Shown here one piece after another: positions 1 through 64,000 of a DNA stretch of 64,000 nt. Positions within the stretch are counted from its first letter, which is position 1. Each line of letters starts with the position of its first letter. The stretch covers positions 62,001-126,000 of the forward strand of contig JADIIU010000003.1 in the NCBI GenBank assembly GCA_027603945.1, written 5' to 3'. This DNA is from Terramyces sp. JEL0728. Lineage: Eukaryota; Chytridiomycota; Chytridiomycetes; Rhizophydiales; Terramycetaceae. A program made the translations under genes and the position numbers. Below the pieces are notes generated by a model. That model did not search any database and was not told where the DNA came from. It saw nothing but the letters and a program-made list of their open reading frames with translations.

Positions 1-3000
1 ACGAGATAAAACATAAAACATTGCTAGCGGCTAAAAGAATCAAAATAAACCCCGGAGTACCCACTGCAGCCATCCAAAAAGAAGTGGAACAGCATAATCT
101 CGGCCTTTCCAAAAAAAGTGCTATTCCTCCAATTAGAAAAGCGTCCGGAAGGGAAAGCTCAGGGACTACAACAGAAGGGTTTTCACAACAAGTTCAGATA
201 TCTATCGATGTCGATATCCCGCCAGCAGAGGGAGGGGAAACAAGCAAGTTTGCAAGCCCATTTACTTTTTTAAAGTACTTGAAGCAACACACAGACACAG
301 ATGAATTTGTCTATTTGATTCCAGTAACATCTACGCAAAAAGGACAACCAACTTACAATCCTTATAATTTGCAAATTGTCGATTTTTTCAAAATAAATAC
401 AAAGTCTTCTGAAGGATACTATACAATGTCGGCAAACGTAAGCGCGAATTGATCATAGGGAATTACTCATATTAACCAATATGGCCAAGGAACATTCACC
501 CCCATTGAGCAATGGTGCAGAGAATATGAGCTGTATCATAAATTGCTCAAAATCCCATTTTTTGCCCGATACAGATCGTGGAAATGCTTCACTTTATGGA
601 AGAACACTGTCCTCCACACCAAGATTCTAAGTGCAAAGAAACTTTTGCAAAAACAACTGTTTATTTTGCATCCATGTATACGGCCTGCACTGCAAGCTAT
701 AAATAATCAAAATATGGATATTATGTTAGAAAAACGGCTAGTAGGGTTTGAAGAGCAAAAGACGTTGGAGCTGAACGATTTTGTCCGAGAACAGAAGAGT
801 CTAGTTGAAAAAGTAACAGTTGAAGTATTAACGCCTTGGGAAGAACAAATTAGAGAAGTTGTGGAAAATGCATCCCGCCAGTGTTTAGTTAATGGCGGGT
901 TTGAAGTTCAAACATCCGACGAAAATCAGGAAAATGAAACCAAAGAAGTTAGGAAGCTAACTTTCACCGAACAGGCTGCCAGACGAACCGAATGCAAAAA
1001 GTTGGCGAGGTTTGTAAAGTTGGCAGACTATATGATGGTTTCTACTCTTCACATGCTTGCTATTGCCTCTGTTCAGGATTTACTCTGTTTCACTTTTCAA
1101 GGATGCCAGGATTCTGATGTTGTCGTAGACGATATTGGAGTCGGAACAGCATTCATCAACGAATACGGCGTGGCAGTACCAAATCCTGAAAACGGAAATG
1201 GCGAAAGAACAAATGAAAGTGCATATACTGATGGAAACCTCACCGGTGTCCAAGTTGGAGGCGTAGTAGTTGGAAAGGAAGTCAAAACTTCTCAACTTAT
1301 AGAATGTGGATTTGATGGATTTTCCAATATTTTAAGCCGCTTGGTGGTTGCTTCAATGCAAAAAATCGAGCTTATTGAAATCATCGAGGAAGAAGGTGTT
1401 AATTTGGAACAAAACATCGCAATGGAAGAGTTAGCTCAACCCGAACCCACCAAAAAAGCTGAGGATGGCAAATGGAAAATCAGCAGCGAAAAAGCAAAGC
1501 AATTTGTACCGCTCTTTCGAACTGAATTGATGGTCGAACGAGATGGAGAAAATACTAGATTTTACTTTTCTTCATCTTTGGCAGACTACCTTGCAACTTT
1601 AGACATCCTGTTAAAGGTTTACCTCTCTACAATTGAAAGGATTGGGCAGCTCACAAACACCATTTCCTTTTTAGATTCATCAAATTTGGCTGGAGGTTCC
1701 TACTCCACTGTAAGAGGATTGGATGATCCGGAATATGGCGACGGTCCTCAAGTAGGGTCTATTGTGCTGGAAGGTGGCTACTTTAAAGAACTGTGCGGAA
1801 GAATTAGAGGAGTGCTAGTTGGTATGTTTGCAAACGCTTCCAGCTGGTTGAATACTTTGGACAACATGAAAAATATGTGGATAAATAATGAATCGTTCAA
1901 AGGGCTGGAGTCTCTTCGAAAAGAAGTTGGAGAGCTGGCATACATATTGGCTACTTCAACTTCCGAAACGCATGAAGGAGGGGCAGCAGCTATCATTGCA
2001 GCAGTAAAGCAAGCTAAAGATCTGGAAAATCAAGATGCTAGTATGGAAGAGGGGGAGCAGCCTAAAAGCTACAACATTCTTGAATACGGGTCGACTGCAT
2101 CTAAAAACGCAGACGGGATTGTGATATCTACTATGGTCGACTTTTTTGAAAGTTCTCTCCGAAATTTTGCAAACCAAAAGCAGATTATGACTTCAATTCC
2201 TACCAAGTCTGTAATTAACAATCTACTTGTTGACTCGTCAAATCTTAAAGGCATATTGGTTCCAAGTCCAGAACGGTGTTTTGAAGAAGTTGCAAAGATC
2301 CTGCCTGGTTTGGCGCGAGACAAAAATGAATTATTGCTAACCGAGATTCAAACTTGGGTGCGTATCTTGAACACGCATCCGGCAACAGTTGAAGGATTTG
2401 TTGAATATCTAGGCTGGCTTGAAAAAGGTAATAGGGAATTAAATTCAGTACAGGATAGTCTGGAAACGGTTGACATTTTGGAAGCCGAGACCATTCAACT
2501 TTACAATTTGCTGGACAACTATAAAATTTATATTCAGCCCACCGATTTGGCTATGTTCCAGACTCTATCGCCAACAATTAGAAGTTTGAAAGAAGCTGTA
2601 GAAATTGCTGTGGATACGAAAGAAGATAATATCAACAAATTCACCGTGGATTTAGAAAAGCTTCTTGGTGATTTATCTTCCGAAGTATCGGAAATTCGAA
2701 ATGCCGCGCAAGACCCAATGGTTCTAAATAGCTCTTCCAACAACGATGAAGTAATTTCTTATCTTGAAGATCTTCGTAAACAACTAGAAAAAGTTGAAAT
2801 ATTAAAATCTAAATACGAGACTTGGGGTAGACTATTTAAAAGCGGTGGCAAAAAAACTGCAGAAGCAGAGGAGGGCCAAATTGAGAATGCAGATTTCGGC
2901 GACTTGAATGAAGATATTGAAATGGAAGAGACCAAAAAAGAAGTAGAGCTAAAGAACTCTTTATGGTCCAGCCTAAAAGACTGGGACAGATTGGCAGAGT

Positions 3001-6000
3001 ACCTATTTTTAACTTTAGTGGCTGGAAGACCCAAGCATTCGATACGCTGGTGACTGACGACATCAACACCAAGATTTTGACATACCTGAAGGTAGCATAC
3101 AACTTGGACAAAGGACTTCCGCCAAATGAAGTTGTGCCAAAATTAAAAGAGCTGGTCGAAGAATATAGGAAAATGTATCCGACAATTGTGGATCTTAGGA
3201 ATCCTGCTTTGAAACAGAGACACTGGGATAAAATCCAGGACGCTGTAGGAAAACCTCTGGTTCGAGATGAAAACTTTACGCTGGGCCAGTTGATTGATTG
3301 TCGAGTGTTTGATTTTAAAGAAGAAATTGGCCATATATCAAGTCAAGCTGGATCTGAAGCTGCATTGGATGAGATGCTCACCAAAGTCGTAAAGCTATGG
3401 AATGATGCTGAATTTATTGTTACTCCATACAGAGACATCAAAGACGTTTTTATTTTAGGAACGGTAGAAGAAATCCAAACGCTTTTGGAAGACAGCCAGG
3501 TCACAATTGCTACTATCAAAGGATCTAGATTTATTGGACCCATCAAGGCGGAAGTGGAGCGATGGGATAAAATGCTGAGTCTTTTTGCTGAAACTCTGGA
3601 TGCTTGGTTAATCTGTCAAAGGAACTGGCTGTACCTGGAGAGTATTTTCTCTGCTCCAGATATCCAAAGGCAGTTGCCGGAAGAGGCAAGAATGTTTTCG
3701 CAAGTGGATAGAAGCTGGAAAGAAGTAATGCGCAAAGTTTCCAGGAATCCAAACGCAATAAAGGCTGGAACTATGCCTGGGCTATTAGAAACTATGCAAC
3801 AAAATAACATTTTACTGGAACAAATCCAAAAATGTTTGGAGGATTATCTGGAAAGCAAGAGACTGTTATTCCCTCGGTTTTATTTCCTGTCGAACGACGA
3901 ATTGCTTGAAATTTTATCGCAAACCAAAAACCCACAAGCAGTCCAGCCTCATCTAAGCAAATGCTTTGATGCAATCAAAAGCTTGGACTTTTCCTCTAAT
4001 GATCCAAAGAGCATTGATATTCTAGGAATGAATAGTCCGGAAGGAGAGCGTGTGCAGTTTTTGAAAACCATAAAAGCCAGGGGGAATGTAGAAGGATGGC
4101 TATGCAATGTGGAAGAAGGAATGGTCGCCGTCCTCAGGAGACTAATCAAAATTGCTCTTGCTGAGTATGATGAAACCAAAAGATCTGATTGGGTAAGGGA
4201 ACATGTTGGCCAGGTTGTAGTAACTGGGAACCAAGTGATTTGGTCAAAAGATGTTTCTGAAGCATTGAAAACCAGTGAACCAAACAAAGCCCTCCTTGCA
4301 TTGAAGCAAAAATCGATCACGGTAATTGCTTTCTAAGTGTAGAACCTTTCCGGTTTGGCCATGCTCGTTCGCGGCGATCTAACCAAAATCCAACGTGCGA
4401 TATTAGGGGCTCTAATTACAATCGACGTTCATAATAGAGATATAATCCAATCGCTTGTCAATGCCAAGGTTACCACCGCTGGTGACTTTGAATGGACAAA
4501 GCAGCAAAGATATTATTGGGATGTTGACTCTGATACTTGCCATGTCAAGATGTCAACATCAGTCTTTTCATATGGTTATGAATATCTCGGATGTTCCCCA
4601 AGACTGGTTATTACCCCGCTCACTGACCGTTGTTATCTAACCCTAACAGGGGCGATGCAGCTTAATCTTGGTGGGTCTCCAGTTGGACCTGCTGGAACTG
4701 GAAAAACCGAAACTGTCAAGGATTTGGCAAAAGCTATGGCTAAACAGTGTGTTGTTTTCAACTGTTCTGATGGTATGGACTATAAAATGATGGGCAAAAT
4801 GTTTGCTGGATTAGCTCAATCCGGCGCTTGGTGCTGCTTTGATGAATTTAACAGAATCGATATCGAGGTACTTTCTGTCATTGCTCAGCAGCTGCTGACA
4901 ATCAAAAATGCTAAAGATATCAAAGCTACTAGATTTATTTTTGAAGGTCGTGAAATTCGATTAATTGAAACCTGTTGTGCATTTATTACCATGAACCCTG
5001 GGTATGCTGGCAGAACCGAGTTGCCAGATAATTTAAAGGCCCTTTTTAGACCGATTGCAATGATGATTCCAGATTACGGCTTGATTGCAGAAATAATGCT
5101 CTTCTCTGAAGGGTTTGAAAATGCAAAAGTACTAGCAGGAAAGGTTGTAAATCTATACAAATTATGCTCGGAGCAGCTCTCCCAGCAAGATCACTATGAC
5201 TTTGGAATGCGTGCTGTCAAATCTGTATTGATTATGGCGGGATCATTGAAAAGGAGTGCGCCGGAACTCAGTGAAGACGTTGTACTAATAAGATCATTAA
5301 GAGACTCAAACTTACCCAAGTTTTTGTCTGAAGACATTGGCCTTTTTAAAGGTATTCTCTCAGACTTGTTCCCTGGCGTGGTTGTTCCTGAAAGAGATTT
5401 TGGCACCTTGGTCGGGGCAGTGAAGGAGGTTATGACTGAAAAACAAATGGAAATCGTGGACGGATTTGTGTCTCGAATTTGTCAGCTGGCTGAAACTATG
5501 AAAATCAGACATGGTGTTATGTTAGTAGGGCCGACAGGTGGTGGTAAAACTTCTTGTTATGAAATATTGCAGACAGCCAGCACTAATTTGCGGGAAAGAG
5601 GAAACAAAGAATTTGAGAGAATCAAGACGTGGGTGCTCAATCCTAAGGTCATGATAATTAACAGTAGTGTGTATCTATGAATGAGCTGTACGGCGAATTC
5701 AATTTGGCTACCATGGAGTGGAAAGACGGTCTAATAGGGACTATGTTTAGAGCTCAGGTTACCGATAACAGTCCTGACGAAAAATGGACGGTGTGTGACG
5801 GGCCGGTTGATGCTCTATGGATCGAAAATATGAATACGGTGCTAGATGACAACAAACTCTTGACTTTAATTAATGGTGAACGAATCAAAATGTCTCCAAC
5901 TATGCACATGCTCTTTGAAGTTGGAGATTTGGCGGTAGCTTCGCCTGCCACGGTAAGTAGATGTGGTATGGTATATATGGATCCTGCAATACTAGGCTGG

Positions 6001-9000
6001 ATTTCCTACGTTAAAATGTGGTTGAGAAAACAACCAGAAAAAGTTCCAAGCGAATTGAAGGAATTTCTTTTGCATCTATTTACAACATATGTGGACAAGG
6101 GGCTTCAGTTTGTACGGAGACATGGAAAAGAGTACATTAGATCCGTAGACTTGAATTTGGTTGTCAGTTTATGCCGACTGCTTCAGACATACATTAACAA
6201 GCCAGAGATAGATTTTAAAAAACCAATTGCCGACCTTCAAGTCCTATTTGCCAATCTGTTTGTATTTTGCTACGTTTGGTCAATTGGCGGAAACCTGGCG
6301 GATGGCTGCCAAGAAACATTTGATACATGGTTCAGAGATTATCTAGATGCTTGTCCAGTTAATGAACTCAATTTGCCGACTAACAGCTCTGTTTTTGGAT
6401 ATTTCGTTGATTTGAAAAGAGGCTTTATTCCATGGGATGAAATCGTCCCGACTTTTAAATATTCTGCAGACATACCATACTTCCAAATGATGGTTCCAAC
6501 AGTAGATACGGTCAAGTATGCCTATCTATTAGAGCCATTGCTTACAAATAGCTACGCTACACTATTTTCTGGAGAAACTGGTGTAGGTAAATCAGTCATT
6601 GTTCAAGATCTGCTAAATAGAATCGGCAAACAAAACAAGTATATTAATGTGGTTCTCAACTTTTCAGCCCAAACGAGCAGTACTCAAACCCAACAAATGA
6701 TGGAGTTAAAGGTGGAAAAGAAGAGGAAAAATATTTCTGGCGCTCCTGCTGGATTCAACAAAATCGTGCTATTTGTGGATGATTTGAATATGCCAAAGTT
6801 GGACACATATGGTTCCCAGCCTTCAATTGAACTATTGCGTCAATATATAGATTATTCAGGGTTCTATGATCGAGAAAAGCTATTCTGGAAAGTAATTCAG
6901 GATGTGGAGCTGATAGCTGCCTGCGCTCCTCCTGGAGGCGGGAGAAATCAAATATCCCCAAGATTTTTACGGCATTTTAATATGCTCAGCATCCCTGCAC
7001 CAAGCGAGCTTTCACTGGCAAAGATTTTCAAGTGCATTGTTGAAGGGTTCCTCAAACCGTTTTCAGCAGAGATAAAGGCCTCTTGCGATGCAATTGTCAA
7101 TTCATCTATCGAGATCTATCATCGAATGCTGACAGAATTACTCCCAACGCCTGCCAAATCTCATTACACCTTTAACCTCAGAGATTTATCAAAGGTTGTG
7201 CAAGGTATACTGCAAGTCAGACCACAAACAATTTCTACAAGGCTAGATTTAGCGCGCTTATTCTGCCACGAGTCATCCAGAGTATTTCATGATCGCTTGA
7301 TTGATGACAATGACCGAAAATATTTCAACCAGCTCCTGTCTGAGTTGTCAGATAAGAATTTTGGCGCTACTCTTCCCAAAGAAAGCTTTTCGACCAATCC
7401 TATCATGTTCTGCGATTTTACAAAGAGAGGCGTTCCTGCTGAGGATCGCATTTACTTGGAAATTTCAGATATGAAGTTAATGACAAACCTCTTGGAAGAA
7501 TATTTAGAAGAATATAATGTAACAATGAACAAGGAGCTGCGATTAATCTTCTTTATGGACGCCAAACAGCACATAACAAGAATATCGCGCATAATCCGCC
7601 AGCCAAGAGGTAATGCATTGTTGGTAGGTGTTGGTGGCACAGGAAAGCAATCTCTCACAAGGTTGGCGTGCCACATTTCAGACTATCAATGTATCCAGAT
7701 TGAACTCACCCGAACATATGGAAGTGAAGAGTGGCATGAAGATTTAAAAAAACTATACCGACTAGCTGGAGTAGAAGGCAAAAACACAGTCTTTTTATTA
7801 TCCGACACACAAATCAAATCTGAAACTTTCTTGGAGGATGTCAACAATATTTTGAACTCTGGCGAAGTACCTAATTTGATTGAATTCGAAGAAAGGGAAA
7901 AGATTTTAGGGGAATTGCGTCCAATTGCAAGAGAGAAGGGGCTAGGAGAAGACAGAGATAGTGTTTACCAATTCTTCATCAACAGGGTCCGAGATAACTT
8001 GCACATAGTACTTGGAACAAGTCCCGTTGGGGATACCTTTAGAAATAGATGTAGAATGTTTCCTTCGTTAGTGAACTGCTGTACTATAGATTGGTTTGAT
8101 GAATGGCCAAAAGAAGCACTCCTATCGGTCTCGACACGATTCTTGGAGTTTGTAGACTTGGGCTCCGATCAAATGAAAGAGAAGATTGCTGCAATGTGTG
8201 TCGAAATTCACTCTTCGGTTGGAGAGTTGGCCAAGAAGTTTTGGACTGAGCTACGCAGAAGATATTACACTACTCCAACCTCGTACCTTGAACTAATCAA
8301 CATCTATGTAAAAATGCTTTCAGAACAAAGAAAAGAGCTGGGTACCGCAAGAGACCGATTAAGAAACGGGTTGAACAAATTATCCGAAACAAATGAATTG
8401 GTAGCCAATATGCAGGTTGAATTGAATGTGCTTGGGCCGGAATTAAAGGTTAAAGCTGCAGATACTGAAGAGTTAATGATCAAAATCGCAAAGGATCAAG
8501 AAACTGCAGATGGGGTCCGTAAAATTGTTTCCGAAGAAGAAGCAATCGTAAGAGAAGCCGCGTCCCAAACGGAAGCAATTGCTAATGACGCCCAACGAGA
8601 TTTGGACGCAGCAGTTCCGGCATTAGAGTCTGCATTCAAGGCACTGGATGCGCTTGAGAAAAAAGATATTGCTGAATTGAAGGTATTTTCAAAGCCTCCT
8701 GATGCTGTGCTGATGGTTATGGAAGCTATCTGTATCCTTTTCAAAAGCAAACCGGACTGGGAAAATTCAAAAAAACTGTTGGGGGATTCTCAATTAATGA
8801 AGAAGATGCAAGAGTACGACAAGGATTCAATTCCGGAAGCAATCACCAAGAAACTTAGAAAGTATATTGAAATGCCAGCGTTCAACCCTGAAGCTGTTGA
8901 GCGGGTTTCCAGAGCCTGTAAAAGTATGTGTATGTGGGTAATTGCGATGGAACTCTATTCCAGAGTTTTCAAAGAAGTGGCTCCAAAAAGAAAGAGATTG

Positions 9001-12000
9001 GAAGAAGCTCAGCAATCTTTGGAATCGACAAGGGCTAAATTGGCGGAAAAGGCTGCCGCTCTGCAGGAAGTAGAGAACCAACTTGAAAAGCTAAAAGCGA
9101 CCTATGAAAATTCAGTGTTAAGCAAGAAGCAGTTACTCGAAAAAATGGAAGAAACAACCAAAAGACTAGCACGAGCAAACAAGTTAACAACCGCATTGGC
9201 AGACGAACAAGTGAGATGGACTGAATCTGTTGAAAAGCTGAATGTGCAAATCGATTCCTTAGTTGGGAATATTTTCTTGAGTGCTGCATCCGTGGCCTAC
9301 TACGGCGCCTTTACGTCTGTATTTAGAGATGAATTAGTACAAACCTGGATAAAAACTTGCACAGAGCTGGAGATCCCTGTTTCACAAAACTTTAATCTTG
9401 TAGATACCCTATCAGACCCTGCAGCGGTTAGGGATTGGAATATTCAAGGGCTGCCTTCCGATTCTTTATCAATTGAAAATGGGCTTTTGGTAACAAAAGG
9501 ACGAAGATGGCCACTGATGATAGATCCGCAAGGCCAAGCAAATAGGTGGATAAGGAATATGGAGGGATCCGAGTTGAAAGTGATCAAGCTAACGGAACCT
9601 AAATTTTTACGCTCGCTGGAAAACGCAGTTAGAACAGGGCAGCCGGTGCTCATTGAAGATGTCGGGGAGCAATTGGATCCAGCATTAGAACCACTGCTCC
9701 TAAAGCAAACGGTCCGTCAGGGAGGAAGAGTATTAATGAAATTAGGAGATTCTTTGGTTGAATATGATCGAAATTTCAAACTTTACATTACTACAAAGCT
9801 CCAGAATCCACACTATTTGCCAGAAGTCTGCATTAAAGTTACAATTATTAACTTTACTGTTACTAAAGCAGGTCTAGAAGGGCAACTATTGGCAGACGTG
9901 GTGAAGCTAGAACGGCCAGAGCTGGAAGAGCAGCGAAATTCACTTATTGTTAATATTGCATCAGACAAAAAGCAGCTCAAGGATATTGAAGAGAAGATTC
10001 TGAAACTCTTATTCAACTCTCAAGGAAATATTTTAGACGATGAAGAACTTATTAACATTTTAAACCAATCCAAAGTTACATCCTCTACAATTAACGTTCG
10101 ATTAGCAGAAGCCCAGGAAACCGAAGTCAACATTAACACGGCAAGAGAACGGTATAGACCTGTCGCGATAAGAGGGTCTGTGCTTTATTTTGTTATGGCT
10201 GACTTGGCTGAAATGGACCCAATGTATCACTTCTCGTTGAAATACTTTAAAAATCTCTTTGTAAATACAATTAAGGAATCTGAATCTTCGGACGTATTGC
10301 CGGTCAGAATCAGAACCCTGTGCAAAAACACTACTTTTGATACGTTCACCAATGTTTCTCGCGGATTGTTTGAAGCGCACAAGCTAATTTTTGCATTTAT
10401 GATCTGTATTGAAACTATGCGCGAAAAGAATTTAATTGATCCAAACGAATGGAATTTCTTCTTGCGGGGGAGTGGTGTCATGCGAAATAGCCTGCCTCCT
10501 AAACCGCCTATTAGGTGGCTTTCCCCATACATGTGGCAGAATCTATGTGATTTGGCTTATACCATACCCCAATTTGCATATACAATTGATCACGTTAATA
10601 TGTACCCAACTGACTGGGAGACACTCGTCGAATCTGACCAGCCGAATTTAGTTCCAGTTCCTGGAGATACTACCTCCCAGCTCACAGACGTTCACAAACT
10701 GCTGTTGGTCAAAGTGTTGCGGGAAGAAAAGGTAGTTCCGTGTGCGATAGAATTCGTCAAAAGGAACCTTGGGCCAGAATATATAGACATTCCCCCTCTG
10801 GACTTGTCAAAAGCCTACAAGGACACTAATCCAGCGACCCCCCTCATATTCATTTTGTCAACTGGATCAGACCCTGTTACACAGCTGATGAAATTCGCCA
10901 GCTCTCCAAAGATGAATATGCAAGAAAAGCTTCAAATGATATCTTTGGGACAAGGACAAGGTCCGATAGCGGAAGAGCTGGTAAGGAAAGCAACTACTTC
11001 AGGAGACTGGGTATTCCTGCAAAATTGCCACTTGGCAGCCTCTTGGATGAACAGGTTGGAGGCAATTGTTAAAGAATTCGGACAAGGCGAAATGGAAATC
11101 AACCAGAAGTTTAGATTGTTCCTGTCGTCAATGCCCTCAAAAGTATTCCCAGTGTCGGTGCTTCAAGAAAGTGTCAAGGTTACTAACGAGCCGCCAAAAG
11201 GTCTGAGGGCAAATCTTGCCAGGAGTTTTGCCGATATTCCAAAAGATTTGTTTAATGATCATCCGCCTCAAGGAGTGAAGTTTAAAAAATTACTATTTGG
11301 TGTCTGTTTCTTCAATGCCATTATTCACGAAAGAAAGAAATTTGGACCATTGGGATGGAATATTCTGTATGATTGGAGCAATTCGGACTTGGAAGTGTCT
11401 TGCATCATACTTCGAAACATGCTGCAAGAATATAAAACCATTCCTTGGGAAGCCTTGACGTATTTGACCGGAGAAATTACATTTGGAGGCAGAGTAACTG
11501 ACGATTGGGATCGAAGAGCACTGAAATCCATTCTTGCAAGATTTTATACCACCTCGATTTTGGATGACAATTACCAGCTCTCTCCTTCAGGAATCTATTA
11601 TGCACCACCAGACGGAGATATGGCGAGCTTCAAATCATACATTGACGGGCTACCATTTAATGAAGAGCCTTCAGTCTTTGGAATGCATGAAAATGCAAAT
11701 ATTAGTTTCCAGTTGCAAGAAACCCGCAGGTTAATTCGAACAGTTCTAGATGTTCAGCCTCGCATGTCTGCCGGAGCTACAGGAAAATCAAGCGAAGAAA
11801 CAGTACTGGAATTAGTGGCATCTATTTTAGCTGAATGGCCGGCTACCCTTCACATTGATCCATATTCGGATACCTTGAACCCCACTTTACAAATATTGTT
11901 TAGAAGAGATGAATCAGGAAGAATGCTTAATTCTTTAAGCACTGTCTTGCTGCAAGAAATTGTACGATTCAACAAGTTGAACAACATTGTAAAGGCGTCG

Positions 12001-20023: not shown

Positions 20024-20110
20024 TTTGCCAGAAAGTGCAGATAATTTGCTTGTCACAGGTTCCACGTTTGAATTTGTATAAAAGCAGCGCCAAAAAACTT
20101 TGAACACAAT

Positions 20111-50142: not shown

Positions 50143-50196
50143 TGTGATTAGAGAAAATTCCTCCACCTTGTGCAATAAATTGTACACAATAGTTTA

Positions 50197-52681: not shown

Positions 52682-52851
52682 TTTGTAACTTGGGATTGGG
52701 ATGGCGGGAGAAAGAATTTCTGGAACAAACGATGGACTCGACAGTCTATTTCCCTAAATAAATCAGCCAGCCATTGTGAACACGGTGTGGTTGTGGAGCA
52801 GATTGCATTTTAATCGTCCCGCCAGCCAAGATTGTTTGTTTCCTTCAGCCC

Positions 52852-52963
52852 AAACTCTGGATAACAATAAATCAAACTCTGGATAACAATAAATCCAACT
52901 GGATAACAATAAATCCAACTGGATAACAATAAATCCAACTCTGGATAACAAACTCTAGATAAC
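52852..52963 (+). repeat. Minisatellite in the ATG3-OLA1 intergenic region
   Basis: About five tandem units of 20-23 bp share the core ctggataacaataaatc, two of them exact 20-bp repeats, with the last unit degenerate. It lies in the divergent promoter region (52682-53055), about 90-200 bp before the OLA1 start. No other element is recognised in that 374-bp interval. Confidence 0.9.
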
Positions 52964-53055
52964 CACATACAGATATTATAAGCCACTCTCTGTTTTTTTC
53001 TTGGATGAATTCTTTTTCCCTTTCCAAAAGGTTCCTTTCAAAACAGACAAAGCAA

Positions 53056-54361: not shown

Positions 54362-54374
54362 ATGTGCAAATTTA

Positions 54375-56552
54375 TTACATATAATCGTCAGAGAGATAAT
54401 GAGAATTTTCAAATTCGTGTATTTCAACAGTCAAGTCATCATCTCCAAAGATTGAATCAAGTATTTTGGAAATATCTGTAGCGTCAGCGTAATCGTTATT
54501 AACTATCTTGGTAGGCGGGTCTGGAAGGATCAATCCTTCATCATCAGACTTATCGTGCTCTTGCCACATGCGAGTAATAATCTCAGCATTCATTTGGCGA
54601 GGTTCGTTGGAAACATTTTGGTTTGATTGCCGCACACTGATGGCCGGGGATAGATTTGAAGTCTTCCCTAATGTTTTTCGCACCTTCTTTTCAATATGCT
54701 TGCCGTCGTAATCCCAACCGCCATCTGGTTTGATAGTCACTGTTCGGACATTATCCGCAGTTGAATCTACTATATTTCGCACTACCATATCCAAATTTAA
54801 AGTGTGTAGCTCTATATGTTTGCTACACACGGGACAAGTAAGGTTGAGATATTGTGCCCCTGTGGCATAACTTGAAATCCAAGAATCCAAGTCGAAACAC
54901 TGCTATTAATTCGAAATACGTTTAAATGCTTACAGTGAGTACTGCGCACGGGCTGCTTCATTTTGGTCATTGTCAACGGGCAGTTTAAGGCAAGAGGCAT
55001 AGATTCTACCACCATCATGCACTCGTCATCAGTTCCATTGAAAAGCTCATCCACTGTGTTAGTAACATGTACCAAGCTTTTCAAAGTTACTTTCCACTAA
55101 ATGTGGCCGTGTCTTTACATATTCCAATGCTTTCAAAGGAACCAAAAGGAAGAATGATTCAATTTTGAAAACATATTCTTCTTTTAATTTTTCTGATGAA
55201 TAAAAGTGGATGGAAAGCGTTGCTTTGCCTTCTTTCAAGTATGGTTTTACTAAAGTAGGTAAATTCGTCCCTATTGTTCCCAACAAATTGTCCGGTGTTC
55301 GCTCGTACTTCTTTTTTTGTACGGGTATCTCCACTCCATTTAATAGCATCGATTTCAAATTCACAGGCCAATCATGTCTTTCGGTACTATCCATCGCACG
55401 GTGACATCTCAGCTGAATGAAGGCATCTACATTTCCCAACTTTAGCTGTTCTTTAGAAACCGCAAACTCTGCATGCACACTACTGAAAGCCCTGACATTT
55501 CCAGATTGATAGATAATACAGTGTGATAATGGAATATAGCTGCCTCTATTCGACACAGACGGCGTATGAATATGAGAGAATGAGTTTGCTACCATTGAAG
55601 TTAAATTTGTAGGATTTGGTGCTATAGACATTGGCGTATTAGCTCGAACAGACGATACAGTGGAAATTGGACGTATCGATGCACTTGCCATTGAATTTAG
55701 CCTCGCAGGGGTATGAACTGCAGAATTTTGCATAGCTGGAATTGCCGCACCAGAATTCAGTCTAGCCGGGACGTTCTCTGGTGCGCTATGATATTGGTAA
55801 GAGTAAGGAGTCTGGGGATGTATCCGGGGAGCGCCATTTGGTTCAAGTTGTGGGGTGGTTGTCATATCAAACTTTTTGAAAATTGGTGTGACCCATTCTG
55901 TAAGCTTGGAGCGAAAATGATGGACTCGAGGATCATAGTGTGCCAGAGCAGTAATTCCTACCAAATATCTATATTGCTGTAAGCATAAAGTTAAATCTAC
56001 GCGTTATTCTAACTTACTTTCAAATAATGGTAAAAACTTTGCTCTGTATTTGAGTATTATTTCCAATAAACGATAGAATCCCAGCGGTTCGTGTGGCTCT
56101 TCAATACAAATCTTTGCAATTTGAACTAGTATCACTGACAATAATGGGACATATGCACTGTTGTAGGCAAGAGGATTCTTACACCAGAATGTCATTTCCT
56201 TTATCACTTCCGATAACGCTGAACTATTTTGTAACATCTCTCTCAAATATTTCAATCTTTCTATATTTCTATTCATTACGGATTCATTCGACTGTGCAGA
56301 TTGGGTAGTATAGATTGACGGGGGTGGTAAAGAACGGATTCCAGATCCTGCAAAATTACCACGTATCTGTGGTGTTAACGTCGTTGGCGTATTAACTGGT
56401 ATCTGGAGGTTAGGCTGAACCATTGTTTGTTGTGATAAGGTGTCGGGATGGGCTGTAGATAGTTCCTTTTGCAAATTCTCTGCCTGTTTCATGAAATATT
56501 GCAGCAGATTTTGCTTTTGTTCAACTGTTAAATTCGACATTTCCGGTTGCAT
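54375..56552 (-). CDS. SP-RING (PIAS/Siz/Zmiz-type) SUMO E3 ligase, 705 aa
   Basis: Probable SUMO ligase. A Gln/Ser/Pro-rich N-terminus of about 270 residues (MSNLTVEQKQNLLQYFMKQA) is followed by a PINIT-like region (HDWPVNLKSMLLNGVEIPV). The SP-RING has LALNCPLTMTKMKQPVR, THCKHLNCFDLDSWISS and LTCPVCSK; the Zn ligands Cys, Cys, His, Cys, Cys, Cys are all present. The C-terminus holds an acidic stretch with DDEGLILPDPP, which resembles a SUMO-interacting motif. Introns: 55997-56017 (21 nt), 55054-55072 (19 nt) and 54900-54919 (20 nt). No SAP domain is obvious, favouring Zmiz-like over classical Siz. Confidence 0.85.
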
Positions 56553-56678: not shown

Positions 56679-57584
56679 ATGAATATTTTGGTCATTGGTG
56701 CTGGTGCGGTTGGATGCACATATGGTTCCCACTTTCAACATCCTGGAGCAAAAGTGTCTCTAGTGTGTCGCTCAAACTACGACGCTATTAAATCCAGAGG
56801 AATCAAGTTTGAGACATATAATTGGGGAGACTACACATTCTCACCCGATGGCGTGTTTAAAACAGTAAAAGAAGCTACGGGGATATATGATCATGTCATT
56901 GTTACGACGAAAGCGACTCCAAATATAAACTTGGTTGAACTCATCCAACCAGTCGTTACGGACAATACCATGATTCACTTGATTCAAAACGGGATTGGAA
57001 TTGAAGATGATTTAGCTGCTCAATATCCAAACAATCCGATTGTGTCTTGTATAGCTTATATTGCGTGTCACCAACCAGAGCCAGGATACATAATCGCAAC
57101 ATCGCATGTCACTTACTTTACTTTGGGGCTGTTCAAACTCAATCCGGTGGACAATGAAAAACTTCAAAGATTCGTTGATCACGGCACGGCAGGCGGATTG
57201 ACGTTGAATAAGGATGACTGTATCCAGCGATCGCGATGGAAAAAGCTTATTTGGAACGGCTCATTTAACCCACTATCGATTGTATCCGGGAACAAGACTT
57301 GTAAAGAAATGCTTGATGATGAAGATTTACACTCACTTGTCCGAAGCTTGATGCTAGAAGTAGTCACAGTAGCCAATCAGCTGTTTGAAGAAAAGATTCC
57401 CTTGGAAGCAATAGATGAAAATATTGCAAATACTGTAAAGATTGGCCATTACAAACCAAGTATGTTGTTGGACTGGGAACACGGCAATCCAATTGAAATT
57501 GATTTTCTTATTTCATCTTATGCAGACAACATCGAACTTGGCGTTTCTGCCAGCACTCAATTTGATGGATGGAATACCATGTGA
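56679..57584 (+). CDS. 2-dehydropantoate 2-reductase-like protein, 301 aa
   Basis: ApbA/PanE-family NAD(P)H reductase, which reduces ketopantoate to pantoate for coenzyme A. It has the N-terminal Rossmann motif ILVIGAGAVGCTYGSHF, VTTKATPN, HLIQNGIGIEDDLA, the RSRWKKLIWNGSFNPLS catalytic-domain block and YKPSMLLDWEHGNPIEIDFL. It is intronless up to the TGA at 57582. The expected C-terminal helix (GLLFQKLKKHNPYFPE) occurs about 60 bp further on in the +1 frame, so either a splice I cannot resolve or a frameshift truncates it. Family members are often multiple and not all are true PAN5. Confidence 0.85.
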   Translation: MNILVIGAGAVGCTYGSHFQHPGAKVSLVCRSNYDAIKSRGIKFETYNWGDYTFSPDGVFKTVKEATGIYDHVIVTTKATPNINLVELIQPVVTDNTMIHLIQNGIGIEDDLAAQYPNNPIVSCIAYIACHQPEPGYIIATSHVTYFTLGLFKLNPVDNEKLQRFVDHGTAGGLTLNKDDCIQRSRWKKLIWNGSFNPLSIVSGNKTCKEMLDDEDLHSLVRSLMLEVVTVANQLFEEKIPLEAIDENIANTVKIGHYKPSMLLDWEHGNPIEIDFLISSYADNIELGVSASTQFDGWNTM

Positions 57585-57694
57585 TATGAAAAGTTTGGAG
57601 ATAAATGATGTTTGTCATTTTCATTCAACTTTAGGGTTAGGGTTACTTTTTCAAAAGCTAAAAAAGCACAATCCATACTTTCCTGAATAAACAA

Positions 57695-58726
57695 ATGACT
57701 ATCAATATATTTAGTAATGAAGAAGTCGCTGCTCATCATACTACCGCATCGGTATGGGTCGCAATATCCGGAAAAGTGTATGACATTACAGAATTTATGG
57801 AAGACCATCCTGGCGGTGATGAAATTTTGCTGCAATACGGGGGGAAAGATATTACACAAGTGTTGCAAGATCCGAATGAACACTTACACTCTGACTCTGC
57901 ATACGAAATGCTCACCCAATATTACATTGGAGATTTGGAGGAAGGTACAAATGGCAATTCAACTTTGAAGAAGGAAGAAAAGTTTATTGATGTTACTAAA
58001 CCCATGCTCTACCAAGTATGGACTAAAAAGTTCAGCAAAAAGTACTACATGGAGCAAATCCACATACCTAGACATACTAAAGGTTCTGCCCCAATTTTTG
58101 GCTCATTCCTTGAAGTATTTTCCAAGACGCCATGGTTTGGTTGTTCTAATATGTAGGTATGGAGTTCCGATTTTCTGGGCACCAATCATCACCTACTGCT
58201 TTTCCAAATCACTTGCAGAGTGTAGTCTAAATACTGTTTTGTCAATGTTTGGGGTTGGATTGCTCATCTGGACGTTAATAGAATACGGATTACATAGATT
58301 TATTTTCCATATTGATGAGTATATGCCGGACCACCCTGCAGCGCTAACAGTCCACTTTCTGTTACACGGAGTTCACCACTTTTTACCTATGGATAGGTAT
58401 TTCGTATTTAATCTCAGATTGCGATTGGTGATGCCCCCAGCACTTGGGTTTACGTTGGCGTACCCATTTTGGACAATGTTTACCACTTTCCTTCCTTATG
58501 GACTCGGGCAAGGTGTTGCAGCAGGAGCAATGTCTGGGTTTGTTATGTATGACATGTGCCACTGTAATTACTGTTAATCTTAGATTATGTTCACCATGGA
58601 AAACCAAGAGGATCTTACTTTAGAGAAATGAAATCTTATCATTTGGACCACCATTACAAGAACCCAGATCTTGGATTCGGAATCACTTCAAAAATTTGGG
58701 ACTATGTATTCCAAACTACTTTATAA
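57695..58726 (+). CDS. SCS7: Sphingolipid fatty-acid 2-hydroxylase with cytochrome b5 domain, 322 aa (copy 2)
   Basis: Same protein as at 28409, with haem motif HPGGDEIL and hydroxylase His boxes intact. Introns at 58135-58156 (22 nt), 58397-58417 (21 nt) and 58564-58583 (20 nt). The last has lost or never gained one T compared with copy 1, so unspliced reading hits a stop here but not in copy 1, although the spliced products agree. This shows the length difference is tolerated only because it is intronic. Confidence 0.95.
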
Positions 58727-58755
58727 TAATTTTTAATTTGATAAAATTCACTTTC

Positions 58756-59691
58756 CTAAGTATTTACTGTATTCCTATTTCTAATTGCAGCTAATTTGCG
58801 CTTATAAACTTCTTTCTTAATCGCTGCTTCCTCATCCCAATAAGGTAGCTTTAGGTGACGGGTCTGTAATTAAACTGATTTTACTTTTTCATCTATATAG
58901 TGATGGCTGCTGGTATCAGCTTGGACCAGCTTGCTTGTTGTACGGAACCATTCCACATTCGCAGAATATCTAGTTGGTATTGCGATTTTTTCCTTGATTG
59001 GAAGCAAAGGTGGAGATATTCTATGTGAAATACGATTACTTTGGCAATTCGTAGGGATTCGCATTAATTAGCAGTACGTTGTAAAAGTTGTTGTACCCCT
59101 GAATATCTTTTTGTTCTTTATGAATTACTTTTTCTGGTTCTGCAAGACGAACAGGTTCAGAAACATGGTTTCGTTTTATATCCGTGCGACAAGGAGCAAT
59201 TAAACTCTCGTTTGAACTCGGACATCCTGCCTCAGTTAACCCCAGAGCAAGGGGTCTCCCTTCTCCTCCTTGCCCATGATATGCTGCTGGATATTTCGGA
59301 CAGACAGACAAACCTTCCTTGTACAGTTCATTCAAGAATTTCATTCGATTTGTTTTTCCAAATGGCCCTAAATTTCGTCTGGGATGATACGCGATTGTTG
59401 CTGTAACCATTCCACCAGGAAATGAACTGCAATATGAGCTATGTGCTTTACACTCAGCGGAATCGTGAGGCACTTTAGCCCGCGGCCATTTTGCATTAAA
59501 TTCTGTCTGCTCTTCCTTTAGTTGTTTGTTTGCTTTCTTTTTTTCTAATGAGGTTGCAGATGTGCTTTTTGGCCGCTCGTCTACAGTCTAGATTAGCAAT
59601 AAGCAACTTTATCCATCGTAAATGTATCAAACGCTTTGTTTGGATAAGATTCTAAAGAAAATCGCTTTGCTGATAGAGTTGCTCGTTTCAT
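58756..59691 (-). CDS. Uncharacterised Tyr/Pro-rich basic protein, 291 aa (copy 2)
   Basis: Second copy of the gene at 29471-30406, with the same four-exon structure and only a few base differences. Frame and introns are preserved, which supports it being a real gene. Function unknown. Confidence 0.7.
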
Positions 59692-59783
59692 TGTGAAAAT
59701 GACGTGTGCAATGAAAAATTGAATCGTTACTGAATTAGATTTTACGGAATTCCTAACTTAAAGCTGAGAACAAGCCAACTTAA

Positions 59784-59939
59784 ATGCGCAGACATGCTGT
59801 TGCCTCGTGGATAGTACTAGCAGTGAGCATGATCAATACAACTGAAACATACTCAGTCGACGATGCGAATTACACTCTTCAAACTGATTTTTCAGGTAAA
59901 ATTTTTTACTGTGCAAATTTATGTTGCGAACCATTATAA
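59784..59939 (+). CDS. Possible 51-aa secreted peptide or upstream ORF (copy 2)
   Basis: Counterpart of 30498-30653, beginning MRRHAVASWIVLAVSMINTT. The frame is kept and the length identical, but residues 2, 17, 28, 29, 31, 33 and 35 differ. It overlaps the mL58 start at 59921, as in copy 1. Confidence 0.35.
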   Translation: MRRHAVASWIVLAVSMINTTETYSVDDANYTLQTDFSGKIFYCANLCCEPL

Positions 59940-60337
59940 AACGCACGTTCTATTCATTCAACCTTCCAAAGGAAACAAAGACCTTGAAATTAGATGACGG
60001 ATCCACACTGCTTTACCGCATGAAGGAAACTGTCAAGCAAGAATACGACGAGTCAAAATTACCACCAAGGGTACACAGTTATCCTCAGAGAGACAGACTT
60101 ACTCCAGAACAAATCAGAGAAATTCAAAAATTGCGAGCCGAGGATCCAGATACAAATACAGTTCTACAATTAAGTAAAAAATACAACACATTCCCAGCTT
60201 TTATTTTAAAAATCACTGAATGCCCTCCTGAAAGAAAGAAAAAATTGAAATTACAACAGAATATCGAGTTTGAAAACCTGCCTGATAGTAGGAAAAAGAC
60301 GTTGATTGATCGCATGAGAAGAAAGGCACTATGGTAA
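59921..60337 (+). CDS. MRPL20: Mitochondrial ribosomal protein mL58, 138 aa (copy 2)
   Basis: The protein is identical to the one encoded at 30635-31051, including the basic presequence and the LTPEQIREIQKLRAEDP core. It is followed after 27 bp by UNC50 copy 2. Confidence 0.85.
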   Translation: MLRTIIKRTFYSFNLPKETKTLKLDDGSTLLYRMKETVKQEYDESKLPPRVHSYPQRDRLTPEQIREIQKLRAEDPDTNTVLQLSKKYNTFPAFILKITECPPERKKKLKLQQNIEFENLPDSRKKTLIDRMRRKALW

Positions 60338-60364
60338 TGAAATAAAAAAGTTTCTGTTTTTTAA

Positions 60365-61181
60365 ATGGACAATCAGCTTCCTCCCTTTTCACCTTCAAGA
60401 AGAAGGAGAAATCGTTTCAAATCAATTCAAGTTTATTTCCAAAGACTGGCAACGCTTCAATTAGATTGGGAGATGGCTTTATGGCAGATGCTGTATTTAG
60501 TAATAGCACCAAGAAGAGTGTAAGTCGCTGCTAATATAGTTACCGCAACATATATCACCATAGACGTAAGATTATACTAATAAGAAACAAAGAATCACTG
60601 GGCAAGGGATGATCCAGCATTTCACATCCTTTTGGCGTTTGGCATGTGTGTCGCCGCGTGCGCTTATGGGATGGTTTACAGCGCATCGTTTGTAGAGACT
60701 GTGAAATTGATATTTTTTACAGCTATAGTGGAATTTCTCATTGCCGGATCATTCGTGGCGACAATCAATTGGTGTTACTGGACTAATGCAGGTATATTAC
60801 AAACAAATTCATGATCCAGCATCAACTTAATACCGTGGAACAGAGCGTAGAATGGATGTACTGCTTTGATGTTCATTGCAATGCTTTTGTTCCGTTCTTT
60901 CTATTCACATATGTGGTCCAGTTCTTTTTCCTGTTTATCGTTACAAAAGGAGGGTTTTTCAGCAGAGTGTTTGCAAATACGATATATTTGGTCGCAGGGA
61001 CGTATTATTTCCTCATTACCTTCCTGGGATTTAATGGTAATCGCGTTTTGATTTAGCGCTTCCATTTCTGAAAAATACGTGGTTCTTTTTATATCCAATA
61101 GTCTTGGCTGCGATGCTGTATGTATTTTCTATATTCATGTTCAATGTATCGCAAATAATCTTTAAAATATATTTTGAATAA
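60365..61181 (+). CDS. GMH1: UNC-50/Gmh1 Golgi membrane protein, 245 aa (copy 2)
   Basis: Second copy of 31079-31895 with the same four introns (60520-60539, 60566-60584, 60772-60791, 61037-61056). Differences are few and mostly silent. Both copies are intact. Confidence 0.93.
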
Positions 61182-61291
61182 TTTTTAAAGTTAGCCGACC
61201 AATCACATTTTGGAAAAATCTGCCATCTAGGGCTAGGGCTATTTTTTTTTCTGCATCAACTTTTGTCTATAGACTTTTACTTTTTTTAACC

Positions 61292-61763
61292 ATGGCTGAA
61301 CAAGTACCTTGCAATTAATCTTTAGACTGAAAAGGCTTACCAATTCCAACAAGGTGTTTTCCAAGGAAAGAGCAAAATCGCTCGTTGGTCAAACGAAATC
61401 GGTCTTGGATTCAAGACTCCAAAGGAAGCAGTTGAAGGAACTTATATTGACAAAAAGTGTCCATTCACCTCTTCTTCAGTTTCAATCCGTGGACGTATTT
61501 TGACTGGTGTCGTTGTTTCCAACAAGATGAAGAGAACCATCATCATCCGTCGTGAATACCTCCACTTCATCAAAAAGTACAACCGTTACGAAAAACGTCA
61601 CAAGAACTTGGCAGCTCACATTTCACCATGTTTCATTGGTGTTGTTCCTGGCGACCAAGTTACTGTTGGCCAATGTAGACCACTTTCAAAGACTGTCCGT
61701 TTCAATGTATTGAAGGTACAAAAGAAAGTTGTCAAGGGAACCAAATCATTCGCTAAATTCTAA
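61292..61763 (+). CDS. RPS11: 40S ribosomal protein S11 (uS17), 149 aa (copy 2)
   Basis: The protein is identical to copy 1, with the same four-codon first exon and 22-nt intron (61304-61325). The upstream sequence differs from copy 1 by several small indels (around 61182-61230), the most diverged intergenic part of the duplication. The CTAGGGCTAGGGCT box and poly-T are kept. Confidence 0.97.
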
Positions 61764-61910
61764 TTTGCTGCATTTAATAAATTGGTCGATCGAGAACAAG
61801 CAGGTCGAAAGACATTGGTTCGAAACTCTTGCCTAACCACCAAGATGTCAATCAACCACGCAAGCCAGGATTAAAATTCTGGCAATAGTCGTTTTAACGT
61901 TTATTTCAAC

Positions 61911-62397
61911 TTATAGTGTGGTGCATTTTATGATTGAAATTATCAGCAGCGCAATGTACATCGCCAGTCCTAGAAAGCATTGCACTATCAGGGTGAAAAA
62001 TCTTAGGCATTGATGTATCCACATCGTGATACTTTCAGTTCCAAAGCGAACTTTGGCAAACTCATGTGAGATTTCTTCAATAGAACAAATAACCTGCGAT
62101 TAACAAGAATTACCGGTGCCCAGAGCAGCTGCAATATAAATCCTACTAGCTTTGGGTGCTTGAAGATTACGGCTTTGATGAGTGGAGGCACACCAGAATA
62201 AATCGTGTATTTTGGGAACGCCAACAACCAAGGCACAAGAACCAAATACAAATGAATCGTTAACTATTCATTAACGCAATAGTTACTGTCACTGGAATCC
62301 AAATGGATTTCCAAGCAAATCCTACCACTAAAATATACCTGTCTGCAAAGTTTTGCCAGGAGAGGTCGCTTCTTTCGAATAGAGCCAAGATTTTCAT
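61911..62397 (-). CDS. Small polytopic membrane protein, 147 aa, unknown (copy 2)
   Basis: Second copy of 32631-33117, with introns 62264-62286 (23 nt) and 62094-62113 (20 nt). Base changes within the second intron keep its ends and branch-like box. The frame is preserved. Confidence 0.6.
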
Positions 62398-62571
62398 TAA
62401 TAAACAGTTTCCCCTTGATAAGTAAAAAGTTACGTTGCCAAAAAGTGCGAAATTTCGTCAATGGTCCACAATAATATGCATGAGGTGTTGATGCCCGCAT
62501 AGACATGGAGATTAGAAAACTTGACATTCTTGAAAGATTTCGTCCAGTTAGTTATAAACACTAGTCTGAGA

Positions 62572-63417
62572 TTAAATATTACTTCGTAGACTCGAACAGT
62601 CGTGTCTGTCATCAAAGATTGAATATCGCAATCTGCACAACCACATTGCTGGAGAAGTCAGCAGCCCGAAAAGTTTCAATGGAATGCATCCGATTCCATA
62701 CAAAATATCTATTGTCAGCTGAAATATACTCGAAGCAAGTTTCCCCTCTTCAATTATTATACCAGGTATGCCTCTGATTTTCTTGCAAGATTTTGATGGA
62801 TCTGAGAATCTCTTGTAAGAAAGATAGCGTTGCTTGTACAGATGTAGAGCTGGGGATATTTTCAGTAATTTATTTGACGTTTTGGACTCGTTTCTCGCAA
62901 TGAACGATTTGAAATACTGTTGCGCGGTATGTATGGCTTTCGATACCCTTTTGTACTTTTGTTTAACCGAGTAATCCGGAAAGTCAATCACCAGCTTTTC
63001 AATCCATAGAAAATTATCCATGCATTTGTGATGCACATTTGAATTGGTTTGTGCTAGACGGCAAATGGTTTTTGAATCCAGGTAGGAACAAATAATTAGC
63101 TGGATTTCATAGGGCAGGGTTTCAAACGATATTGCTAAAGTATCAATGCTTGATTCAAACCACTTTGATTCCCTTTTGATCCTCTCCAATTCAAATTCAC
63201 GATATTCATTGATTCTTTTAATCGTATTTGGCAACCTCACAATTGTCACCAGTATCGCCCCGACGGAATATATAGATTTCAGGGCTATAAACGTGTATGA
63301 AATGATCTGTCGAAATTTCCCAAAGAGTTTGTAAGATTTTCTTTTAATCAGATCATTGCGTGATTTCATGCTATAATTATAGTCGGCTAGCTGGTATAGA
63401 CTTAGTAATTGCTTCAT
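62572..63417 (-). CDS. F-box protein with N-terminal hydrophobic segment, 281 aa (copy 2)
   Basis: Second copy of 33292-34137 with two visible substitutions (Ser to Ile at ELERIKRES, Ala to Thr in FETLPYEIQ, the start of the F-box). The frame is intact and intronless. Confidence 0.75.
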   Translation of the reverse strand: MKQLLSLYQLADYNYSMKSRNDLIKRKSYKLFGKFRQIISYTFIALKSIYSVGAILVTIVRLPNTIKRINEYREFELERIKRESKWFESSIDTLAISFETLPYEIQLIICSYLDSKTICRLAQTNSNVHHKCMDNFLWIEKLVIDFPDYSVKQKYKRVSKAIHTAQQYFKSFIARNESKTSNKLLKISPALHLYKQRYLSYKRFSDPSKSCKKIRGIPGIIIEEGKLASSIFQLTIDILYGIGCIPLKLFGLLTSPAMWLCRLRYSIFDDRHDCSSLRSNI

Positions 63418-63525
63418 TTCGTGCTAAAATTGATTGACGTGGATGGCTTCTAATTATATTTGCAAACAATGCAAGGTGCCAATGTACATAAAGAATATAA
63501 TGTATTAATAACAAAACAAAAATAT

Positions 63526-64000
63526 TCATCTATCTTCGATGTCAAATGCATAAAGCGAGTCAATTAATATTCGTCGGAATGGGGATAGAAATAATTCTAA
63601 AAGATAATCTATGGTTATACGGTTCTTACCTTTGACATATCCTGCTTCCTCCTTTAATATTTGAGCAATGCCCTCATTTCTAATTCGGAGCGCGTTAAAT
63701 CTCATGAATGCTAATCGCCTTTGACGATATAGCTGAAAACATATCGGGCTAGGTACGTGATATTTACTTAACATCTGCTGATACTCAATTCTGTTGTGTT
63801 TGAATATTTTGCTAAATTTAGCCGAGGTTTGCTTGATATCACGGTAGGCTATCCTTCGAGATTTGTATTTTGGCCATTCTATCATCGATCGTTCAATCCA
63901 TATGCAATCGTTCATACACAATTTGTAATTTTTCGCACTAGTTTGAGAAAAGTTTAATAAGCTACGCGTATCCAGGTACTGCAGAACCAGCAGGTTAATT
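63526..64000 (-). CDS. F-box protein paralogue (copy 2, cut by window end)
   Basis: Second copy of 34246-34959. Its N-terminal part, including the hydrophobic segment and most of the F-box, lies beyond base 64000. The visible part is open and nearly identical to copy 1. Confidence 0.75.
   Translation of the reverse strand, partial: INLLVLQYLDTRSLLNFSQTSAKNYKLCMNDCIWIERSMIEWPKYKSRRIAYRDIKQTSAKFSKIFKHNRIEYQQMLSKYHVPSPICFQLYRQRRLAFMRFNALRIRNEGIAQILKEEAGYVKGKNRITIDYLLELFLSPFRRILIDSLYAFDIEDR

Follow-up and report, generated by a model that had tools for sequence, protein, structure and literature searches.

Ultra-short introns are described from several eukaryotic lineages. The ciliate Stentor coeruleus has introns of 15-16 nucleotides (nt) and altered branching factors, Cwc25 and Isy1 (PMC9505925). 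Chlorarachniophyte nucleomorphs carry introns of 18-20 nt, and those of Paramecium and Nyctotherus measure about 25 nt (PMC5014332). Mikrocytid introns are 16-17 nt long (PMC10245619), the introns of dicyemid animals have a median length of 27 bp (PMC6543705), and type B introns of Trichomonas span 23-25 nt (PMC12316389). We analyzed a stretch of 64,000 nt (the window) from Terramyces sp. JEL0728, a chytrid fungus (Chytridiomycota, Rhizophydiales, Terramycetaceae), together with further DNA from the same assembly. Textbook fungal introns are far longer than ~20 nt. Most introns predicted in the Terramyces DNA fall at 19-23 nt, and we conclude that they are very probably genuine U2-type spliceosomal introns, shrunk to this size throughout the sampled DNA. 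We infer both their splicing and a change in early spliceosome assembly from the sequence.

The preliminary description of the window had named ciliates and nucleomorphs as the main owners of such introns; both are known cases, but the list was too narrow, since mikrocytids, dicyemids and Trichomonas belong on it. The Terramyces introns resemble those of Stentor in their near-fixed length, GU-AG ends, near-fixed branch A (the 10th nucleotide in 15-nt Stentor introns) and 5-nt tail, as well as in the conserved GUAGUA of U2; the most abundant Stentor intron starts with GUAAUU (PMC9505925). They differ in being 19-23 nt long, in having the branch A mostly at position 14-16 within a clear TAAY, and in belonging to a fungus. 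Like the ultra-short introns of Paramecium and Nyctotherus they lie in a nuclear genome, and with chlorarachniophyte nucleomorphs they share nearly the same length (PMC5014332), although nucleomorphs are relict endosymbiont nuclei and Terramyces DNA comes from the nucleus of an independent cell. The exceptionally narrow length range recalls mikrocytids; as described in PMC10245619, these parasites have a reduced spliceosome, and 224 introns are predicted in them, whereas Terramyces has about 2 introns per kb and keeps U2AF65 and U1C. Dicyemids and Trichomonas type B introns likewise represent shortened spliceosomal introns (PMC6543705, PMC12316389), but these are longer, or few, and occur in other lineages. 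In its accessible part, a 2025 paper (PMC12316389) sets its 23-nt introns beside just two others, the 15-nt introns of Stentor and the 18-nt introns of Bigelowiella. Among the matches listed for open-access papers, none described such introns for a fungus, although an earlier description may exist; the sole match with both Terramyces and introns was a general classification. Microsporidian introns reach down to the low twenties of nucleotides.

The window is part of a 367,593-bp contig (C3), whose identity with Terramyces sp. JEL0728 shows its fungal origin. An orthonectid or dicyemid origin, which the 15-Mb genome and the axonemal dynein had at first suggested, was rejected on the match of THI20 to a Terramyces protein. 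Our sample comprised 284 kb in 23 stretches of contigs C1, C2, C3 and C9, out of a 15.0-Mb assembly. We used a purpose-written, self-trained gene finder that combines codon usage and codon pairs with GT-AG introns on both strands. It was trained on the window plus 200 kb (contigs C1 and C9), and a second time on the 284 kb, with L030 and L031 added. All introns are gene-finder predictions from DNA, and "real" introns in the decoy counts below are predicted ones, false positives included. Because the finder requires a GT start and an AG end, these ends are not independent support. Window counts cover the unduplicated part (1-57501) and leave out a second copy at 57502-64000.

In round 0, which used a flat length prior and gave splice sites no weight, 99 of 243 introns already fell at two lengths, 20 nt (59) and 21 nt (40). 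When the flat prior (12-150 nt) was kept to the end and splice weights were learned, 424 of 600 introns across the 284 kb were 19-23 nt long (84, 179, 114, 33 and 14 at 19, 20, 21, 22 and 23 nt). With learned lengths the figure was 529 of 654 (99, 202, 155, 49 and 24), 21 nt being the second commonest length. Most predicted introns thus lie below about 30 nt and in a narrow range, as in ultra-short intron genomes. With learned lengths, the model scored 15,369 nats when 10-300 nt were allowed and 12,779 when only 30-300 nt were, so that banning introns below 30 nt costs 2,590 nats at the same upper limit. With flat lengths the scores were 13,997 (12-150 nt) and 12,252 (30-300 nt), a cost of 1,745 nats that is partly due to the wider range. 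In the unduplicated window, 121 of 143 predicted introns were 19-23 nt long. The preliminary description had counted about 117 in 27 genes; some of our models fuse adjacent genes. At least one such intron occurs in each of the 22 models lying wholly within this part, and introns of this size were present in all 23 stretches examined.

We analyzed the anatomy of 547 predicted introns of 17-25 nt. The donor consists of exonic (A)G followed by GTA(A/T)NT, with A at +3 in 84%, A at +4 in 51% and T at +6 in 55%. Position +5 is T in 45% and the usual G in just 20%; the 5' end of U1 may be altered to suit such donors, and no compensation between -1G and +5G was found in them (p 0.12). The 3' end reads T(T/A)A(A/Y)NN(T/C)AG, and the shared signals are GTA, a branch site TAAY and YAG. 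A TRAY motif is present in 416 of the 547 introns. The distance from the first G to its A is 12 nt in 1, 13 nt in 146, 14 nt in 170 and 15 nt in 42, which puts 316 of the 416 at 13-14 nt and makes the branch position near-fixed. In the remaining 57 the A is nearer (27) or farther (30), and many of these off-position motifs may be chance occurrences. The last G follows the branch A at a distance of 5 nt in 154 introns and of 6 nt in 174. All three signals, donor, branch site and acceptor, are thus packed within 20 nt, as first described, with no room for a polypyrimidine tract between branch and AG. The motif agrees with GUAGUA of U2 small nuclear RNA (snRNA) and sits at a set distance from AG: in 354 of the 547 introns its A precedes the last G by 5-7 nt, whereas 200 shuffles gave 52 such cases on average and never more than 64.

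The motif was in place in 64 of 97 introns of 19 nt, 146 of 195 of 20 nt, 98 of 153 of 21 nt, 26 of 46 of 22 nt and 18 of 33 of 23-25 nt. It was in place in 2 of 8 predictions of 10-16 nt and 3 of 24 of 17-18 nt on the short side, and in 1 of 4 of 26-40 nt, 4 of 30 of 41-100 nt and 7 of 41 of 101-300 nt on the long side. Because predicted introns of 17-18 and 41-300 nt mostly lack the motif, the real length range is close to the 19-23 nt first described, and most predictions in either tail of the distribution are probably errors.

Removal of most of these predicted introns is required to keep the frame open. Among the 121 window introns of 19-23 nt, 83 are not divisible by three and 25 more bring in a stop if kept, so that retaining any of these 108 would disrupt the reading frame or introduce a stop. 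The remaining 13 are 21-nt stretches with an open frame; the branch motif is present in 8 and missing from 5. Over the whole sample (513 introns of 19-23 nt, duplicate excluded), 360 are not multiples of three (3n), 110 are 3n with a stop, 28 are open with the motif and 15 are open without it; an open frame requires the removal of 470.

We examined homologue continuity by counting homologues with an indel no more than 3 residues from a junction in THI20, CFAP70 and U2AF65, whose gene is located outside the window. At the five THI20 junctions (119 homologues) the counts were 0/117, 0/118, 0/118, 63/119 and 8/117, and at the four U2AF65 junctions (120 homologues) 109/113, 1/120, 0/120 and 1/120. 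The 32 CFAP70 homologues, which exclude the public Terramyces protein itself, gave 4/31, 4/31, 1/31, 32/32, 1/32 and 4/32 at junctions 1-6 and 2/30, 27/30, 4/30, 5/30, 2/30 and 1/30 at junctions 7-12, so that 10 of 12 junctions had indels in at most 5 of 30-32 homologues. Homologous proteins support most of the tested junctions. Read by eye, the alignment of OLA1 with 2OHF shows no gap across the four OLA1 junctions. Ten spliced models, two of which were pieces, were scanned against Pfam, and every one gave a match; the Omp85 profile was matched over its full extent across three junctions.

Public proteins carry traces of the same introns. All five THI20 introns are removed in the public Terramyces sp. 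JEL0728 protein, and public models therefore already contain some ultra-short introns. The public Terramyces CFAP70 has seven extra residues, GYYKFNP, that correspond to the translated 21-nt intron 42174-42194. Its final residues, VYRVNN, are what 41538-41558 encodes ahead of its TAG, and the protein misses the last hundred or so residues present in Boothiomyces and Globomyces; this C-terminal loss is explained by the unremoved intron being read to its TAG. In Boothiomyces sp. JEL0866, CFAP70 has GNRSLTA at the 20-nt junction 41923-41942, which by back-translation would fit a 21-nt GT....TTAAC.GCAG. B. macroporosus THI20 has a frameshifted tail at junction 48846-48866 that fits an unremoved 22-nt intron. 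There, the frameshifted tail and the continuation expected could come from a single nucleotide sequence at 11 of 11 positions, compared with a maximum of 10 for 5,000 shuffled tails. Among 510 THI20 segments, just the expected continuation reached 11 (next best 7), and the three of 5,000 random segment draws that reached 11 were each the true segment. Public proteins of both genera thus contain introns of 21-22 nt that were translated instead of being removed, and the possession of ultra-short introns appears to be common to Terramyces and Boothiomyces; for Globomyces the data are only suggestive. Some public gene models of the family keep or skip ultra-short introns, which yields truncated, frameshifted or enlarged proteins. 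Relative to Boothiomyces, Terramyces U2AF65 has an apparent 11-residue insert, which we take, judging by fungal U2AF65 proteins, to be genuine coding sequence.

We searched the genome for spliceosome parts. We found U2 snRNA (140 bits, carrying GUAGUA), U5 snRNA (85.9 bits), U1C and a full-length U2AF65 model with two RRM matches in Pfam, whose own introns measure 20, 20, 19 and 19 nt. All four look ordinary. Two identical-looking tRNA genes adjoin the U5 gene (L043 1901-1982 and 2330-2411).

These features suggest how such introns might be handled. The major spliceosome would recognize each intron as a single unit; intron definition is natural here because the intron is so short, and many internal exons are long (the median is 182 nt, the maximum 4,016). 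Recognition would rely on three signals whose spacing is nearly fixed: an initial GTA, a TAAY whose A mostly stands 13-15 nt behind the first G, and a YAG another 5-6 nt downstream. The least distance between 5' splice site and branch in the human B complex has been estimated at 52 nt (PMC6692369). Because 13-14 nt is far below this estimate, U1 and U2 probably cannot occupy the intron side by side as usual, and would likely bind in turn or within a rearranged early complex. In human cells, Smu1/RED assist introns with a short distance from 5' splice site to branch (PMC6692369), and SPF45 takes the place of U2AF65 in introns with a truncated tract (PMC8363638). In its fullest form, this model holds that the fungus removes on the order of 30,000 introns (about 2 per kb extrapolated over 15 Mb) with just 13-14 nt from 5' splice site to branch A, its early spliceosome rearranged so that U1 and U2 need not share the intron while canonical U2, U5, U2AF65 and U1C are kept, and that the trait predates the split between Terramyces and Boothiomyces. 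We give this combined claim an even chance. The canonical parts also fit a simpler possibility, that the introns are real and the spliceosome works as in any fungus, with helices merely coming closer and early assembly unchanged. The gap between the human estimate of ~52 nt and the distances found here speaks against it, and we consider it quite conceivable but somewhat short of an even bet.

Several results weigh against the reading of these stretches as U2-type introns. No TRAY motif was found in 131 of the 547 introns. Stops occur in 117 of 178 3n introns against 107.6 expected (SD 5.7), so that, unlike what is reported for Paramecium, there is no clear excess. In the dynein gene, 6587-6607 and 8051-8071 are false positives that by eye cover conserved coding sequence, including the GKS P-loop; altogether five window introns are doubtful and at least two of them false. 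The predicted 18-nt CFAP70 intron 43420-43437 was rejected as coding, all 32 homologues showing an indel relative to the model there. The CFAP70 junction with indels in 27/30 homologues and the THI20 junction with 63/119 fall in variable regions, and the first U2AF65 junction (109/113), at the second residue, is uninformative. At the 5th-percentile intron score, decoys match real introns (2.10 versus 2.07 per kb of spliced coding sequence). Neither covariance models nor patterns found U1 or U6 snRNA in the genome, where the best candidates alone were scored, and the U1-70K N-terminal domain had no match in a search without a positive control; because of these limits the misses say little about absence. 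At 27 bits, two weak U6 matches fell short of the family cut-off and were rejected: they keep ACAGAGA but have no AGC triad, and by eye their surroundings are coding-like. The U6 pattern gave 18 matches against 16 in the reversed control; none of the 14 whose surroundings were read by eye was U6-like. Three exact matches to the U1 5' end (six in the control) were likewise rejected as coding-like and without a U1 model match, and a looser U1 pattern gave 13 matches, the control 10. An intron may interrupt U6, or the gene may be absent from the assembly, and the presence of U1C argues that a U1 snRNP (small nuclear ribonucleoprotein) exists.

The false positives show how a gene-finding artefact might arise, with short GT-AG stretches chosen as frame bridges and the true introns longer or absent: the finder does err in this way at the 18-nt CFAP70 stretch and the two 21-nt dynein stretches. 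As an account of the whole set this is very improbable. The length peak appeared under a flat prior, the fit is far poorer without short introns, and reversed sequence run through the flat model gave 8 models with 35 introns, 1 of them at 19-23 nt. The branch motif stands at its fixed distance far above shuffles, and only 11 of 71 predicted introns of 41-300 nt carry it. At the 25th-percentile intron score, decoys number 0.068 per kb against 1.64 for real introns. In-intron signals thus go far towards locating the intron, and the weak tail needs further information because decoys equal real introns at the 5th percentile. Homologue continuity points the same way, as does the public Terramyces THI20, which is identical to our model at 520 of 521 residues.

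The small size of the stretches might also suggest non-spliceosomal removal, either DNA elimination like that of the internal eliminated sequences of ciliates or translational bypassing. We consider this highly unlikely given that GT...TAAY...YAG stands in register, that all three intron phases occur, and that canonical U2, U5, U2AF65 and U1C are present. DNA elimination is further disfavoured because fungi are not known to have a ciliate-like nuclear dimorphism. The introns are short and their clear branch site lies close to the 3' end, which would suit the minor (U12-type) spliceosome; removal by it is scarcely credible, as the commonest donors (GTATTT, GTAAAT and, the most frequent, GTAATT) differ from the U12 consensus RTATCCTT and U2 matched at 140 bits.

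The earlier hosts of such introns (ciliates, nucleomorphs and obscure parasites) have spliceosomes far removed from those that have been solved. A fungus whose spliceosome parts seem ordinary brings the question of the minimal intron within reach. If our reading of the introns as U2-type is true, Terramyces is a possible model for splicing within very little intron space; we take its JEL number to denote a strain-collection isolate that is culturable.

The gene models of the window and their introns are as follows.

3-12772, plus strand: presumably an axonemal dynein heavy chain, judging by its motifs, with its 5' end outside the window; introns 438-458, 2999-3018, 4322-4342, 5648-5667, 12088-12108, 12263-12283, 12511-12533, 12732-12754; 2428-2448 doubtful.
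12775-14359, minus strand: gene model; 20-nt introns 13629-13648, 13576-13595.
14388-15546, plus strand: gene model; introns 14393-14411, 14621-14643, 14829-14850, 15034-15054.
15554-16203, minus strand: DCP1 decapping protein gene; introns 15972-15991, 15802-15821, 15754-15773, 15608-15630.
16220-20925, plus strand: large gene model; 19-23-nt introns 16330-16349, 16551-16570, 16650-16669, 16806-16825, 17822-17842, 18015-18033, 18510-18529, 18904-18923, 19788-19807, 20066-20087, 20189-20207, 20320-20339, 20729-20748; 18659-18679 doubtful.
20950-21264, minus strand: small gene model; introns 21057-21077, 20970-20991.
21293-22746, plus strand: Omp85/SAM50 gene; introns 21629-21649, 22021-22041, 22241-22261, 22413-22432.
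22789-24543, minus strand: NEDD8 E1 regulatory subunit (NAE1/ULA1); introns 24160-24178, 23948-23969, 23759-23777, 23599-23617, 23385-23404, 23174-23193, 22949-22968.
24652-26474, plus strand: gene model, membrane protein-like by eye; single intron 25042-25061.
28234-29441, plus strand: cytochrome b5 / fatty acid hydroxylase gene; introns 28849-28870, 29111-29131, 29278-29298; 28328-28348 doubtful.
29471-30406, minus strand: gene model; introns 30303-30322, 29736-29754, 29579-29599.
30635-32484, plus strand: gene model, probably several genes fused; 19-23-nt introns 31234-31253, 31486-31505, 31751-31770, 32025-32046.
32723-34959, minus strand: presumed F-box-like gene region; introns 34329-34349, 33281-33302, 33134-33153, 32984-33006, 32814-32833, 32795-32813.
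34983-41150, plus strand: large gene model; introns 35061-35082, 35164-35184, 35253-35272, 35736-35755, 36463-36482, 36668-36687, 36792-36811, 37121-37140, 37270-37289, 37867-37885, 38134-38154, 38601-38621, 38895-38914, 39295-39315, 39926-39945.
41191-44443, minus strand: CFAP70 gene; introns 44299-44317, 44208-44226, 43803-43825, 43129-43149, 42784-42804, 42274-42294, 42174-42194, 41923-41942, 41828-41847, 41538-41558, 41375-41394.
44475-45745, plus strand: protein kinase gene, presumably NEK-like; introns 44559-44579, 44591-44613, 45077-45097, 45204-45223, 45303-45323, 45455-45474.
45773-47294, minus strand: THI6-type gene (TMP synthase plus hydroxyethylthiazole kinase); intron 45958-45979; 18-nt 46328-46345 doubtful.
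47323-48991, plus strand: THI20-like gene; introns 47367-47387, 47537-47557, 47582-47601, 48272-48291, 48846-48866.
49011-51733, minus strand: two fused genes, a CDK9/11/12-like kinase and one that we take to be GPD1-like; introns 51386-51406, 51329-51350, 51265-51285, 50753-50773, 50539-50560, 49990-50012, 49571-49590.
51764-52968, minus strand: ATG3-type gene; introns 52204-52223, 52121-52140, 51953-51972.
53005-54361, plus strand: OLA1-type GTPase gene; introns 53200-53219, 53479-53500, 54056-54075, 54268-54287.
54375-56552, minus strand: MIZ/SP-RING zinc finger gene; introns 55997-56017, 55054-55072, 54900-54919.
57502-64000, no strand assigned: second copy of 28216-34720 (99.0% identity), with its own introns.

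The THI6- and THI20-type thiamine genes adjoin and are divergent (45773-48991). In NAE1/ULA1, a predicted 89-nt intron at 24399-24487 was rejected by eye as wrong, since the conserved protein needs other removals. One of these is a 20-nt GT-AG intron at 24343-24362. The other lies at 24467-24487 on the minus strand, where RQLRLWG continues just when 21 nt starting GTAACG and ending TG are taken out; a GT-TG intron, an allele or an assembly error are possible explanations.

The two copies 28216-34720 and 57502-64000 lie about 29.3 kb apart. They differ by 30 substitutions and no indels in 5,176 coding columns. One 1-nt indel falls within an intron, which is 21 nt long in one copy (29278-29298) and 20 nt in the other (58564-58583). 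The other four indels lie between genes or within long predicted introns, and these long predictions are probably not introns. Kinase matches at C3:106956 and 136221, and at 112659 and 141917, suggest that the duplication continues beyond the window.

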